Position numbers and translations under genes: made by a program. Shown here piece by piece: positions 46,041 to 51,245 of a stretch of DNA of 64,000 nt; position 1 is the first letter of the stretch; every line of letters begins with the position of its first letter. The notes under the pieces were generated by a model, which searched no databases, was not told the origin of the DNA, and saw only the letters and a list, made by a program, of their open reading frames with translations. The stretch is from Desulfuromonas sp. (GTDB taxonomy: Bacteria; Desulfobacterota; Desulfuromonadia; Desulfuromonadales; Geothermobacteraceae): NCBI GenBank assembly GCA_002868905.1, contig PKUA01000011.1, positions 1 through 64,000 on the forward strand, written 5' to 3'.

Positions 46041-46069
46041 TTGACAACCAACCGGACCGGGATTATAGT
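46041..46069 (+). promoter_or_regulatory. Sigma-70-type promoter of mraZ
   Basis: TTGACA (46041-46046) and TATAGT (46064-46069) are 17 bp apart, nearly consensus. The start of transcription should fall near 46076, inside the repeat array at 46071-46124. Confidence 0.9.
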
Positions 46070-46070
46070 T

Positions 46071-46124
46071 GGGGTCAAATGTGGATATAAGTGGTTATTT
46101 ATGGTTCTTAGTGGTTTTTCTGGG
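46071..46124 (+). promoter_or_regulatory. Six 10-bp repeats, probable MraZ operator
   Basis: GGGG, GTGG, GTGG, ATGG, GTGG and TGGG begin at 46071, 46081, 46091, 46101, 46111 and 46121, an exact 10-bp period, each followed by an AT-rich hexamer. MraZ is known to bind arrays of G-rich boxes at this spacing upstream of its own gene. The array starts at the transcript start and ends 7 bases before the ATG, so binding would block initiation. Confidence 0.78.
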
Positions 46125-46130
46125 GTTGCA

Positions 46131-46583
46131 ATGCACTTCTGTGGTGAACATTTCAAACCGCTCGATGACAAGGGACGCCTGAGCATTCCGCGGGAATTCC
46201 GCGACCAACTGGCAACCGACGATCTCCATCTGGTCCTGACCAAGAACATGAACGGCGGTCTGGCCGCTTACCCGACCGCGGAGTGGGACGATTTCGTCAG
46301 ACACCTCGAGAACATTCCCGCCGGACAACAGCGCAACGCCCTGAACCGCCTCTACCTGGCACCGAAAACCGACGTTCAGGTCGACAAACAGGGCCGCATT
46401 TCGTTGAGTCGCGCCCAGCGCAAGTGGCTCGGACTGACCGAAGATGACCGCGAGGTGGTGCTGGTCGGCAACTTTCGCCGTTTCGACCTGTTCAGTCCAG
46501 AGCGATACCAGAACGTGATCGCCGCCGACGTAGCCCTGATCAAGGAAGCCGAGGAGTTGATCAACCGGATCGACTTGCCGTAG
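46131..46583 (+). CDS. mraZ: Transcriptional regulator MraZ
   Basis: 150 residues with two SpoVT/AbrB-like repeats: HFKPLDDKGRLSIPREFRDQ and TDVQVDKQGRISLSRAQRKW. The ATG at 46131 has GGGG at proper distance; ATG 46101 would place the start inside the operator. MraZ represses the dcw division and wall operon, of which it is normally the first gene. Here rsmH, ftsL and the rest do not follow; only a small membrane-protein gene does. Confidence 0.95.
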   Translation: MHFCGEHFKPLDDKGRLSIPREFRDQLATDDLHLVLTKNMNGGLAAYPTAEWDDFVRHLENIPAGQQRNALNRLYLAPKTDVQVDKQGRISLSRAQRKWLGLTEDDREVVLVGNFRRFDLFSPERYQNVIAADVALIKEAEELINRIDLP

Positions 46584-46635: not shown

Positions 46636-46929
46636 ATGAGATCTCGTACGTTCCATTGCGACGGATTCATCCCGGTCCACAACAAATCGTCTCATCTCCT
46701 TGCCGACAACAGTCTTTTCAGGCGCTGCTGCCATCACATGCTGAAAAACATTCTCCCCACCCTGGTGATGCTGGTTGTCAGCAGCGCGATCACCCTTGCC
46801 ATCGCCTCCTGGATCAACCAGGCGAAGTCGCACCAGGCCGTGTCCGACCCCGGTCCGTTCGGTCATGGACTGGCCGGGCCCGGGTTCGTGCTGAAGCAGT
46901 CCCTGCAGACCAACATTGGCCGGAATTGA
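46636..46929 (+). CDS. Small single-pass membrane protein downstream of mraZ
   Basis: 97 residues with one strong membrane helix (about 38-60, LPTLVMLVVSSAITLAIASW) and a polar C-terminus. The ATG has an excellent AAAGGAGG at 6-nt spacing, which supports expression. It is 52 bases after mraZ on the same strand. It is not recognised and does not resemble FtsL by motif. Confidence 0.62.
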   Translation: MRSRTFHCDGFIPVHNKSSHLLADNSLFRRCCHHMLKNILPTLVMLVVSSAITLAIASWINQAKSHQAVSDPGPFGHGLAGPGFVLKQSLQTNIGRN

Positions 46930-46934
46930 ATCAC

Positions 46935-46974
46935 AAAAAAGCCCCCAACTCTGCTGATTGAGAACTTTGGGGGC
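46935..46974 (-). terminator. Intrinsic terminator of the DUF2202 operon
   Basis: On the minus strand an 8-bp stem (46974-46967 with 46948-46941) with an 18-nt apical part that can pair further is followed by six T (46940-46935). It ends the minus-strand operon and may also stop the mraZ unit arriving from the other side, where the tail is weaker. Confidence 0.8.
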
Positions 46975-46999: not shown

Positions 47000-47620
47000 C
47001 TACACTCCCATAATTGCCTCAAAAAGTGCCTGACTAATATATTGAGGCGTATAGGTGACTCCCTGTCGGGCAAGGGCGTTAACATAAGCACGCAAATGAT
47101 TTTTGGACCCCTCAAGCAAATTTTGATATGCGACTACAACATCCAGGTTGTCCGTATCAGCAATCGCGTGTTGTATATCGACCATGTCAATCTCTTCGAT
47201 TGTCGCACCGACCGTTAACCCGTCCGTCAATGATTCGGCACCCGCCTCAATGAGTTCATCGTATTTCTGCTGCAATATCGTGTTGTTAAATACTCCCTCG
47301 TAGATTGAAGCCGAGTCAGGAAGCCCGTATTTGTCCAGTTTCGCCTTCATGGTATCCATATGTTGTTGCTCGGAAACCGCGATCCTGGCAAAAGGATTCG
47401 TCTGCCATAAATCAGTCATTACCAGGTAGACATCCCGAGCCAGTTTCTCTTCCTCGCGCATGTACTCAAGGTGATCAATCTCTATCTGGTTTAGTGACGA
47501 CACCCCAGAACCAGGTCCCTTTCCAGCCAATGACAAGGGCATCGTGAGAAAAGTTGCAACGCCAATGAAAACCAAAGTAACGAGGAACGAGAGGATTTTG
47601 ATTTTTTTATGCTTTTCCAT
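47000..47620 (-). CDS. Exported ferritin-like DUF2202 protein
   Basis: 206 residues. Signal peptide (about 1-32), then a four-helix ferritin-like DUF2202 domain: EYMREEEKLARDVYLVMTDL, FARIAVSEQQHMDTMKAKLD, ANLDVVVAYQNLLEGSKNHL-like region. The Glu and His residues (EEEK, EQQH, SKNH) are placed as di-metal ligands. Function of DUF2202 is unproven; metal or oxidant handling is inferred. It is the last gene of the riboswitch-headed operon. The ATG is preceded by GGGAGG. Confidence 0.86.
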   Translation of the reverse strand: MEKHKKIKILSFLVTLVFIGVATFLTMPLSLAGKGPGSGVSSLNQIEIDHLEYMREEEKLARDVYLVMTDLWQTNPFARIAVSEQQHMDTMKAKLDKYGLPDSASIYEGVFNNTILQQKYDELIEAGAESLTDGLTVGATIEEIDMVDIQHAIADTDNLDVVVAYQNLLEGSKNHLRAYVNALARQGVTYTPQYISQALFEAIMGV

Positions 47621-47652: not shown

Positions 47653-48927
47653 CTACTGAAGGGTTTCCGACGGCCTCCTGTTTTTATAACCATGCCTGTA
47701 GGTATAGCCAGCTCCATTCAGGTCATTGATTCCGTCGCCATTTTCATCCTGGAATCGATCATTGTATTGATCGGCGTCGGTATCGGCCCATCCGAACCCG
47801 TGGCTGAACGGTAGCTGAGTTACATCGTCAATTCCGTTCCCGTCACGATCCGGGTGGCTTTTCTGATACCCGTAACCGAATCGTTTCTGAGCGAACAGGC
47901 AATCATCGCAGTCCGCGACGCAATCACCGTCACGGTCCCGGATTCGATCATTGATACGGTCCCGGTCGACATCCCCCCAACCATACCCATGGGCATAAGA
48001 TGTCCCCGTCAGATCATTGAAGCCATCACCGTTGGCGTCGGCAAACAGGTCATTGAACCCATCGCTATTTTCATCGAGCCAACCAGGTGTCGCCATATAA
48101 GGTACCCCGCCATAATTTCGATCGTGGTCGCAGATTCCATCCCCGTTTGCATCGGAAAAGTTGTCATTGATCCCGTCACCATCTATGTCGATATAGCCAA
48201 AAGGGTGACTGAACGGCATACCCGTGAGGTCACAGATTCCGTCGCCATTCGCATCGACAAAATTGTCATTGATACCATCGCCATCCATGTCGACGAATCC
48301 AAAACCATTGCCGCTATGTGCCCCTGTCCTGTCACAGATGCCGTCGCCGTCTTCATCTATGAAATTATCATTGATCCCATCGCCGTCCTGGTCGACAAAC
48401 CCCAGCCCAAGCATGTAAGGGGAGCCTGCATAATAGTAGCCGTTATCACATATTCCATCCCCATTGCTGTCCGTAAAATTGTCATTGATGCCATCGCCAT
48501 TATCATCGACGAACCCGAATCGATACCCATCGAAGCCGGTATGTGATATCACCCAGCCATTCCTGACGTGGACTTGGCCAAGATCGAGATACTGGTGATT
48601 CAACATGCGGAAGGGGATCTCCGCGATTGTCCCATCGTGTAAATGAACAAATAGACTGTGATCCCCGTCAGCCACGTCAGAAACTTCAAAAGCCCCATCT
48701 GGTTCAAGAGCTGTTGAGGAAGATGACTCGTCGAGGATAACGAACTCGGAGGAGGATTGATTCGCTTGAATCTGGGAGGTCGAACGGTTTTCGAGCTGCA
48801 AGGTTCCAACAACGGTTCCCTCATCCGCGCCTGACGATCCTCCTCCCGACCCACCACATGAGACCAGTCCTGCCATCGCTATCCCAACCATGAAGGACCA
48901 CCCTGTTTTTGCAATCATCGTTTTCAT
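47653..48927 (-). CDS. Surface lipoprotein with tandem calcium-binding Asp-rich repeats
   Basis: 424 residues. Lipobox LVSC after a signal peptide, a Gly/Ser linker, a beta-rich domain (about 40-125), then about eight repeats of roughly 35 residues around DDNGDGINDNFTDSNGDG and DQDGDGINDNFIDEDGDG. These are EF-hand/dockerin or thrombospondin-3-like Asp loops, each able to bind calcium. One repeat is degenerate with four Cys (CVADCDDC). ATG at 48927 with AGGAG at 7-nt spacing. It is predicted to sit on the outer membrane and to stiffen when calcium is bound. Confidence 0.84.
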   Translation of the reverse strand: MKTMIAKTGWSFMVGIAMAGLVSCGGSGGGSSGADEGTVVGTLQLENRSTSQIQANQSSSEFVILDESSSSTALEPDGAFEVSDVADGDHSLFVHLHDGTIAEIPFRMLNHQYLDLGQVHVRNGWVISHTGFDGYRFGFVDDNGDGINDNFTDSNGDGICDNGYYYAGSPYMLGLGFVDQDGDGINDNFIDEDGDGICDRTGAHSGNGFGFVDMDGDGINDNFVDANGDGICDLTGMPFSHPFGYIDIDGDGINDNFSDANGDGICDHDRNYGGVPYMATPGWLDENSDGFNDLFADANGDGFNDLTGTSYAHGYGWGDVDRDRINDRIRDRDGDCVADCDDCLFAQKRFGYGYQKSHPDRDGNGIDDVTQLPFSHGFGWADTDADQYNDRFQDENGDGINDLNGAGYTYRHGYKNRRPSETLQ

Positions 48928-48964
48928 GATAGCTCCTGTTTGCATCGGTCCTTAACCGTTGATC

Positions 48965-49649: not shown

Positions 49650-50909
49650 TTATTGCTCAACATCTATGGTCTCGCACTGGTCAAGCCATTCATCCGCGAC
49701 CGGGTAGGTGTGCATGAAGAGTATGACGGCTCTTGCATCATCTGCGGCCATAACGAATCCGGAGATGTTGGTTCCGGACGCCCCTTGATTCCCAAAGACC
49801 ACATCCATCACTTTCCCTTTGTGAAGCTTGGCCGTCCCGTCTGGAAGATATTCCCCATAACAAATGGTTTTCTCATCGTTCTCGGCGGCGTATCTCACTT
49901 CCCTGTCATAGGTGAAACCTGCGTATGGGAAATAATCTTCCTCAACGGGAAGATTTATGCCGAGCACCGTATTGATAAACACAGTACCATCTACGGTTGC
50001 CTGTCCATCCTTATCAATCGCAGCACCCAACATTGAGGCGGCGGCATCGAAATATGTGCCGTCCTCAAAGGGTGCGGCTACAGTGACGCCGGAGAAGGTT
50101 AGACTCTGATTGAGCAAAACCTGTCGGTAGATCGCCAGGTTTTCGAGAGGGGAATCGATGATTTTAGTGGATCCGTCCGCTTTTGTAATAAAAACGCGTC
50201 CTGCCGGGTCAGTTTCGATGCTGTCGATGTCTGGTTGGCTGAGAAGATCTATAACTTCTCCAAGAGCCCTATCCAGCACCCTGTCAGGTGATCTTGAGAA
50301 ACTCAGCCGACCGAGGTCAACTTCGGATGCAAAGAATTGATACTCTTCGAAAATCGCCCCCTCGCTGTCCAGCGGGAGTAAATACACATCGGACCACCCG
50401 GCATAAAGGGAGTCCTCCGACGGGAGCCAATCGTTCTTAACAATGTCAATAATGTTGAGGCAAGCATTCGACAACTCTTTGCAAGTGAACGGATAAAGAC
50501 CATCGACGCAAACAGATTCATCAAAAAGACCACAGTCAGCTACATCCAAAACAGTAATTGGTTGCTCGAAAACGGCATCGTCTGGCAATGGGGTCCTGTT
50601 AAGAACCGGCGTGTTGTATCCAATGCTGCTCCATGAATAAAGAAGCGGAACACCGTCAGGGTCGCGATCAATGACATAAAGGTCACCATACAGTTCACCC
50701 TTTCCCGGACTATTCCCGCTATTGCCATTGTCATTACCGTTGCCGGGATTCTCATCAACAATTTTCACAGAACCCAAGCCATTTCCGCTATTTGGGACCC
50801 CCCCTCTTTGAGCGTATGCCCAAGTTGGTAGCGCCATGACAATTGCCACGGTTGCAAGCAGGAGTAGTTGAAACACTATTTGTGGTTTAAATGCTGCTTT
50901 TTCTCTCAT
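49650..50909 (-). CDS. Large exported hypothetical protein, first gene after the riboswitch
   Basis: 419 residues from the ATG at 50909 (SD AGGAGG). A signal peptide (about 1-33, ending WAYA) is followed by a Gly/Asn-rich linker (NPGNGNDNGNSGNSPGKGEL) and a globular region with four Cys in CGLFDESVC and CKELSNAC. No catalytic motif is seen. The acidic, low-Lys composition suits a secreted or surface protein. It is the gene most directly under control of the GEMM-like element. Confidence 0.78.
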   Translation of the reverse strand: MREKAAFKPQIVFQLLLLATVAIVMALPTWAYAQRGGVPNSGNGLGSVKIVDENPGNGNDNGNSGNSPGKGELYGDLYVIDRDPDGVPLLYSWSSIGYNTPVLNRTPLPDDAVFEQPITVLDVADCGLFDESVCVDGLYPFTCKELSNACLNIIDIVKNDWLPSEDSLYAGWSDVYLLPLDSEGAIFEEYQFFASEVDLGRLSFSRSPDRVLDRALGEVIDLLSQPDIDSIETDPAGRVFITKADGSTKIIDSPLENLAIYRQVLLNQSLTFSGVTVAAPFEDGTYFDAAASMLGAAIDKDGQATVDGTVFINTVLGINLPVEEDYFPYAGFTYDREVRYAAENDEKTICYGEYLPDGTAKLHKGKVMDVVFGNQGASGTNISGFVMAADDARAVILFMHTYPVADEWLDQCETIDVEQ

Positions 50910-51021
50910 GACGTCCTCCTGTTTCTTTGTCTTGGGAGGTCGAACATATCCATGCCTTGAGGGCAAACCACAACGACTATTACACTCCGACAATAAGACC
51001 TCCGGCCCCGTTGTTTTTGAA

Positions 51022-51063
51022 TCACGTCGGACGACCAAACCTCTGTCTAAAAATCTCCCTCAT
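51022..51063 (-). CDS. Possible 13-codon leader ORF in the riboswitch leader
   Basis: ATG at 51063 follows AAAGGAGG with 6-nt spacing, the best ribosome-binding site in the leader. It encodes 13 residues, MREIFRQRFGRPT, then TGA. It lies between the alternative hairpin and the first exported-protein gene 112 bases downstream. Whether it is translated is unknown. Confidence 0.35.
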   Translation of the reverse strand: MREIFRQRFGRPT

Positions 51064-51110: not shown

Positions 51111-51155
51111 ATGGCCGAGTTACCCAAGGTTTTGGACCTTCGGTAGCTCGGCCAT
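51111..51155 (-). promoter_or_regulatory. Alternative hairpin overlapping the riboswitch aptamer (expression platform)
   Basis: On the minus strand a 9-bp outer stem (51155-51147 with 51119-51111), a 4-bp TACC/GGTA helix and a 4-bp AAGG/CCTT helix, separated by single mismatches, close a 7-nt loop. A moderately T-rich stretch (TTGTATTTC) follows. Its 5' arm is the same sequence as the 3' part of the aptamer, so the two folds exclude each other. Confidence 0.7.
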
Positions 51156-51215
51156 CTTCGTCCAGAAGACCCGCCGCTTTCCGCACCTATCTCACGAAAG
51201 GACTGGCTTTTCGGG
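51139..51215 (-). promoter_or_regulatory. GEMM-I (GEMM-Ib-like) cyclic-dinucleotide riboswitch aptamer
   Basis: The minus strand carries P2 (CCTTTC/GATAGG, 51201-51186, one mismatch) capped by a GTGA tetraloop, the joining element GCGGAAAGC (51184-51176), P3 (GTCTTC/GAAGAT, 51170-51154) and GGCCGAGCTACCGAA (51153-51139). As I recall them, the c-AMP-GMP-sensing GEMM-Ib RNAs of Geobacter have GCGGAAAGC, GGGTCTC/GAGAC and GCCGGGCTGCCGAA in the same order. It starts about 25 bases into the transcript of the promoter at 51246. Ligand choice (c-di-GMP or 3',3'-cGAMP) cannot be decided by eye. Confidence 0.76.
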
Positions 51216-51245
51216 TTTTTACACGCGCCCCGGATGTTTGCAATC

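Follow-up and report, generated by a model that had tools for sequence, protein, structure and literature searches.

MraZ is a widespread regulator tied to the dcw cluster, and, to our knowledge, the determinants of its DNA specificity are little understood. The window analysed here, a stretch of 64,000 nucleotides (contig C22 of its genome, labelled G000), carries a mraZ gene that is followed not by the dcw genes but by a gene for a small membrane protein, which raises the question of whether the dcw cluster of this genome has lost its regulator gene or whether the window holds a second MraZ with another target. These two possibilities had been offered by an earlier reading of the letters of the window (the sequence-only reading). 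Our data suggest that the orphan copy, for which we coined the label MraZ2, is a variant of a well-known regulator: rare, standing alone, accompanied by a conserved partner and, it appears, re-coded.

The mraZ2 gene (46131-46583, plus strand) is an intact open reading frame that begins with ATG and encodes 150 amino acids. A sigma-70-type promoter, TTGACA-17-TATAGT, lies upstream of it (46041-46069, plus strand) and agrees with the consensus at 11 of 12 bases, bearing out the near-consensus promoter of the sequence-only reading. The six boxes of exact 10-bp period that were said to reach the ATG are borne out as well: the operator array, TTGGGGTCAA ATGTGGATAT AAGTGGTTAT TTATGGTTCT TAGTGGTTTT TCTGGGGTTG, runs from 46069 to 46128 on the plus strand, just short of the start codon at 46131. 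The [GT]GG cores of the boxes lie in one phase at 46072, 46082, 46092, 46102, 46112 and 46122, and box 6 includes the likely ribosome-binding GGGG. With both strands scanned, this array of six out of six cores is unique within the 64-kb window, and neither 100 dinucleotide-shuffled windows nor 20,000 shuffled versions of the 260-bp region contained one, with a core that was picked after the boxes had been looked at. With the stricter core TGG, just four of the six boxes are in phase, a level reached by 5 of 60 shuffled windows and by 0 of 5000 shuffles of the region. Conservation is better evidence for the boxes than these shuffle statistics: all five MraZ2 loci identified below have phased boxes in this position, and in the other four loci TTGACA or TTGACT and a -10-like stretch likewise occupy the corresponding place, the match being weaker in G098. 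Downstream, the small membrane-protein gene noted by the earlier reading is present (46636-46929, plus strand); it encodes 97 amino acids with a single predicted span at residues 39-57, and its homologs lie 3' of mraZ2 in the other three full loci. The terminator of that reading is less sure: the stem-loop GCCCCCAA...TTGGGGGC (46941-46974, strand undefined), read from the sequence as a possible shared terminator, was called by the terminator scan on the minus strand only. Beyond it, a DUF2202 protein (PF09968, 166 bits) is encoded convergently to the mraZ2 operon (47000-47620, minus strand), followed by a 430-amino-acid open reading frame (47653-48945, minus strand) that consists mostly of D-x-D-G-D-G-x-N-D repeats, calcium-binding-like by eye; a c-di-GMP-I riboswitch aptamer (51139-51217, minus strand, 44.3 bits) precedes a 462-amino-acid open reading frame (49650-51038, minus strand).

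The genome, 3.30 Mb in 84 contigs and 99.98% complete, has one other MraZ, on contig C78. There the gene order is mraZ, rsmH, a short open reading frame without an NCBIfam match at E<=1e-20 in the position of ftsL, ftsI, murE, murF, mraY, murD, ftsW, murG, murC, ddl, ftsQ (assigned by a weak match), ftsA and ftsZ. Because this cluster is headed by its own mraZ, it has not lost its regulator, and the copy in the window is a second MraZ rather than a displaced one; the first of the two possibilities thus finds no support. The rsmH-ftsI genes, the other mraZ and the similar boxes, for all of which a search of the genome had been suggested, are together on C78, where the dcw operator mixes GTGG and GTGT boxes. 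The ftsI of C78 is split by one in-frame TAA (L005:15160-15162, minus strand), a sequence error or a real stop, and both of its parts match penicillin-binding-protein models.

MraZ2 matches PF02381 in two stretches at 68.5 bits (cut-off 23), and all four full MraZ2 proteins contain LDDKGR, the conserved D-x-K-G-R hairpin, of which D12, K14 and R16 are invariant in an alignment of 25 sequences. Its AlphaFold model (pLDDT 93.9) is predicted to have the swapped-hairpin MraZ fold: all 16 Foldseek matches at E<=0.001 are MraZ chains, the first ten with TM scores of 0.76-0.82, and they include the Mycoplasma MraZ entries 1n0e/1n0f and the MraZ-promoter complexes 9r4j and 9sz7, one of them with a 4-box promoter. 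The sequence-only reading would have been refuted by a complete dcw operon with its own mraZ next to an orphan lacking its DNA-binding residues; the genome does have the former, but MraZ2 retains both the hairpin and the modelled fold. The protein therefore resembles dcw MraZ (PF02381; TIGR00242) in its two MraZ domains, hairpin and fold, and its loci share the phased GTG-type boxes at a 10-bp step between the -10 element and the start codon. In contrast to dcw MraZ, the four full MraZ2 score 81.5, 77.7, 73.6 and 78.0 bits against TIGR00242, below the cut-off of 98.35, compared with 115 bits for the dcw MraZ of G014 and 74.1 for that of G000; rsmH accompanies mraZ at 50 of 50 dcw loci but at 0 of 4 MraZ2 loci, each covering 2.8-3.5 kb; and MraZ2 has four to six boxes, none of them GTGT, followed by the membrane-protein gene, where dcw operators mostly have two or three in-phase GTG boxes. 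A further difference is at residue 9, which is Lys in all four full MraZ2, whereas 51 dcw MraZ proteins, that of G000 set apart, have 48 Asn, 2 Val, 1 Leu and no Lys. The model places this residue in the first strand, three positions ahead of the D in D-x-K-G-R, and we take it to correspond to a DNA-contact arginine of AbrB. The hairpin superfamily is common to MraZ2 and the AbrB/MazE-type swapped-hairpin regulators, as reflected in weak matches below the cut-offs (TIGR01439; PF04014 at 12 bits, cut-off 24.7). The gene next to mraZ2, however, encodes a membrane protein that matches no Pfam family over the cut-off, and no toxin-like gene was found beside mraZ2 in the families searched.

MraZ2 is rare. 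Of 136 genomes of the order, apparently Desulfuromonadales, five carry it (G000, G135, G014, G097 and G098): the full relatives in G135, G014 and G097 are 62-73% identical to the window's protein and ranked above all dcw MraZ, and the copy in G098 is a contig-end fragment with 67% identity over 51 residues. A peptide-pattern scan of genome contigs gave three loci, those of G135, G097 and G098, and an HMM built from the four full proteins scored its members at 286.7-294.3 bits and the next protein among 277 genomes of the class at 145.6 bits; a phylum-wide sample of 395 genomes yielded no further MraZ2. Nearly all of the genomes searched have a single mraZ. Of 69 genomes drawn from the phylum, 65 gave a match, and G000 alone exceeded two MraZ-domain matches and hence had more than one gene; in the order, second mraZ copies were seen only in MraZ2 carriers (4 of 128 genomes with a match). 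These two samples argue against a second mraZ being common. In G135, an 87% complete assembly, rsmH is missing as well as the dcw mraZ, whose loss cannot be told from a gap. A tree of 54 MraZ proteins (4 MraZ2 and 50 dcw) supports the MraZ2 clade at 99/94, which indicates a distinct lineage present in several families. A phage or plasmid origin was considered and rejected: none of 39 pattern stretches of viral contigs is a relative, 12 phage and 26 plasmid records match at less than 60% identity, and the two plasmid matches that were inspected are an ordinary dcw mraZ followed by rsmH. Base composition likewise gives no clear sign of recent transfer, since the G+C content of mraZ2 is close to that of its surroundings at three loci (59.2 against 57.1 in the window, 49.2 against 49.2 in G097 and 59.5 against 60.5 in G014), but not in G135 (52.3 against 44.1, on a 3-kb contig).

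The boxes of the two kinds of operator differ in their cores. By eye we delimited 23 boxes in the five MraZ2 operators (6, 5, 4, 4 and 4), with the cores GTGG (17), ATGG (3), others (3) and GTGT (0), and all 23 have GG at the third and fourth core bases. The 109 in-phase GTG boxes in 47 of 49 dcw promoters of the order (two had no in-phase GTG pair, and that of G000 was left out) have the cores GTGT (70), GTGG (30), GTGC (5) and GTGA (4); the two sets were collected differently, GTG having been required only of the dcw boxes, and are not quite alike. Among the carriers, the dcw operators of G014, G097 and G098 are of the GTGT type, with GTGA as the third box in G097. Thus, the DNA code of MraZ2 has apparently changed from GTGT to GTGG together with an Asn-to-Lys change at residue 9, although 30 of the 109 dcw boxes are also GTGG and the MraZ2 side of the comparison comprises five sequences. 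A pattern of four phased GTGG boxes, searched with up to two mismatches in ten genomes (five carriers and five others) and blind to targets with fewer or looser boxes, gave 14 matches. All four with 0-1 mismatch are at mraZ2 promoters; of those with two, three lie within the operators of G000 and G135 and seven elsewhere. The reversed control pattern gave 23 matches in the same genomes, so the seven are no more than expected by chance, and the search leaves one known site of the array per genome, the mraZ2 promoter itself. In G000, both matches lie within the mraZ2 operator and at no other place in the genome. The second possibility of the sequence-only reading is accordingly borne out as far as a distinct paralog goes; as to another target, the array in its own genome points to its own promoter, and the linked gene is that of the membrane protein.

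This linkage holds in 4 of 4 loci with room for the gene, that of G098 being cut by the contig end. The partner proteins have 79-97 amino acids and one span within residues 39-58, begin 45-121 bp after mraZ2, are 26-32% identical to that of the window and, around the span, have R..hh...N.iPTL.ml...S..tL....I..A in common. An N-terminal tail of 38-39 residues, poorly conserved and with a net charge of +3 or +4, precedes the span in each of the four; the model of the window's protein (mean pLDDT 59.5) shows one long helix and is otherwise of low confidence. For the partner-family members scanned, no Pfam or NCBIfam family was found over the cut-off. Matches to the partner family (E<=0.001) occur in 29 of 136 genomes of the order, the five carriers included, a count in which the weakest matches may be chance and for which many genomes had only 40 first-look candidates scored. 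Homologs therefore also occur without mraZ2, so the membrane protein does not depend on MraZ2. Together with the loci L100-L105, these genomes outline a family of roughly 73-97-amino-acid single-span proteins with a PTL(L/I) motif; six stand-alone loci have no shared neighbours. Around the five MraZ2 loci, no conserved wider neighbourhood was seen beyond the membrane-protein gene: rlmN on one side is common to G097 and G098, whereas the loci of the window, G014 and G135 have different surroundings. The unit of G097 sits in the 1307 bp that separate rlmN from ndk; in G096, of the same genus and with a 96% identical rlmN, the spacing is about 365 bp and the unit is absent. At the two ends, 152 and 175 bp of the intergenic regions align at 77-78%; between them, 983 bp of G097 have 43 bp as their counterpart in G096. 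The absence of the unit from this same site indicates that it was gained or lost as a block. In G092, G095 and G094, rlmN adjoins ndk and the unit is absent as well.

Starting from the paralogy, rarity, linkage, operator conservation, box difference and residue difference observed here, we propose, at a probability of about 0.7, that mraZ2 and the small membrane-protein gene form a two-gene operon in which MraZ2 represses itself through its GTGG boxes, with a code shifted from GTGT. The mraZ2 gene and that of the small inner-membrane protein would be transcribed together as a stand-alone operon; MraZ2, which very likely assembles into an oligomeric ring as other MraZ proteins do, would bind the six phased boxes of the GTGG type, which occupy the leader between the -10 element and the start codon, and would block RNA polymerase and perhaps also the ribosome site in box 6. 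Such repression would keep the levels of MraZ2 and the membrane protein, the presumed output of the operon, within limits. The code would have moved to GTGG in step with the change from Asn to Lys at residue 9, to which a putative effect on DNA reading is ascribed, and in most carriers MraZ2 should not cross-talk with dcw. Self-repression is what we infer from the position of the boxes and from two precedents. The available portion of one report (PMC7761207) describes repeats at a 10-bp step (7 nt plus 3 nt) for B. cenocepacia MraZ, located 3' of the -10 element and over the start site as in mraZ2, although that operator has four repeats and belongs to the dcw operon. M. genitalium MraZ, according to the accessible text of a second (PMC8475190), is a repressor whose sole motif occurrence is its own promoter and whose complementation worked only in cis. 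With its 4-box promoter (9sz7, 9r4j), it is similar to MraZ2 in fold (TM about 0.8) and in its direct-repeat operator, but it is only 22-25% identical to MraZ2, Mycoplasma MraZ heads its own division cluster, and the Mollicutes box AAAGTG[T/G], as given in the same text (PMC8475190), is unlike the MraZ2 boxes.

The separation from dcw is doubtful in G000 itself, because there the dcw MraZ also has Lys9 and its operator is mixed. A tentative reading, whose chances we put below even, is therefore that in this genome MraZ2 also acts on dcw: the dcw mraZ would have been replaced by, or have been the source of, an MraZ2-type protein, and the two would share or compete for boxes or form a mixed ring, such that the orphan operon tunes division and wall genes. 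In a search of 277 genomes of the class with the G000 dcw MraZ, the four full MraZ2 came next after the protein itself, before any other dcw MraZ; it has 8 of 22 MraZ2-specific residues (the next best dcw MraZ has 4); its identity to the dcw MraZ of three family mates is about 34%, against 64-66% for the RsmH of the same genomes; and a tree forcing it together with these family mates is rejected (p-AU 0.0005). Its operator, moreover, carries AGGTGGGGAA, TAGGTGGGTC and TAGGTGGTTT. However, the support for placing it beside MraZ2 is not firm (94/61), and the great length of its own branch (1.36) makes attraction possible, so replacement of the dcw regulator is a lead rather than a result; GTGGGGAA is common as the first box among dcw operators; the operator of G000 keeps GTGT boxes and one 11-bp step and is not matched by the pattern of four GTGG boxes at up to two mismatches; and a single genome is concerned. 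If replacement were true, the two MraZ proteins of G000 may share sites.

The membrane protein might instead act as a sensor or anchor: it would bind MraZ2 and, in response to a signal from the envelope, release the promoter, giving a small membrane-linked switch. The linkage at four of four loci and the net-positive tail before the span would suit this role, but the tail is poorly conserved, no known soluble domain was found and homologs stand alone without MraZ2, and we consider it unlikely. Still more doubtful is the wider proposal that MraZ2 and the membrane protein are a small re-coded control unit (GTGG, Lys9), gained and lost across genomes, that links membrane state to gene control, and that in the window's lineage an MraZ2-type protein took over dcw, whose operator followed towards GTGG. 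MraZ activation has been reported in some bacteria, and MraZ2 could in principle activate its operon. We regard this as quite improbable, since the boxes lie 3' of the -10 element across the expected start site, a position suited to blocking, and the MraZ proteins of both E. coli and M. genitalium are described as repressors in the accessible text of PMC8475190. That mraZ2 is a displaced or decaying remnant of a dcw mraZ might be thought from its standing alone without rsmH, but it is contradicted already by conserved orthologs: the reading frame and operator are intact, the partner is conserved, the distinct clade spans several families, and the dcw cluster is headed by a mraZ of its own, so we give this reading next to no credence.

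Among the literature matches listed, by title or by the start of the abstract and with most subscription papers outside their scope, none is on a second, orphan MraZ. MraZ2 suggests that an ancient switch of cell division can be duplicated, re-coded in its DNA specificity and turned to a different purpose. A natural pair of paralogs in one cell with matched differences (GTGT and GTGG; N9 and K9) offers a ready test of how MraZ reads DNA, and it raises the question of what MraZ can control besides cell division. Besides that of G000, another long-branch dcw MraZ, that of G020 (L018), lies near MraZ2 in the tree; it has Leu9 and boxes of the GTGT type.
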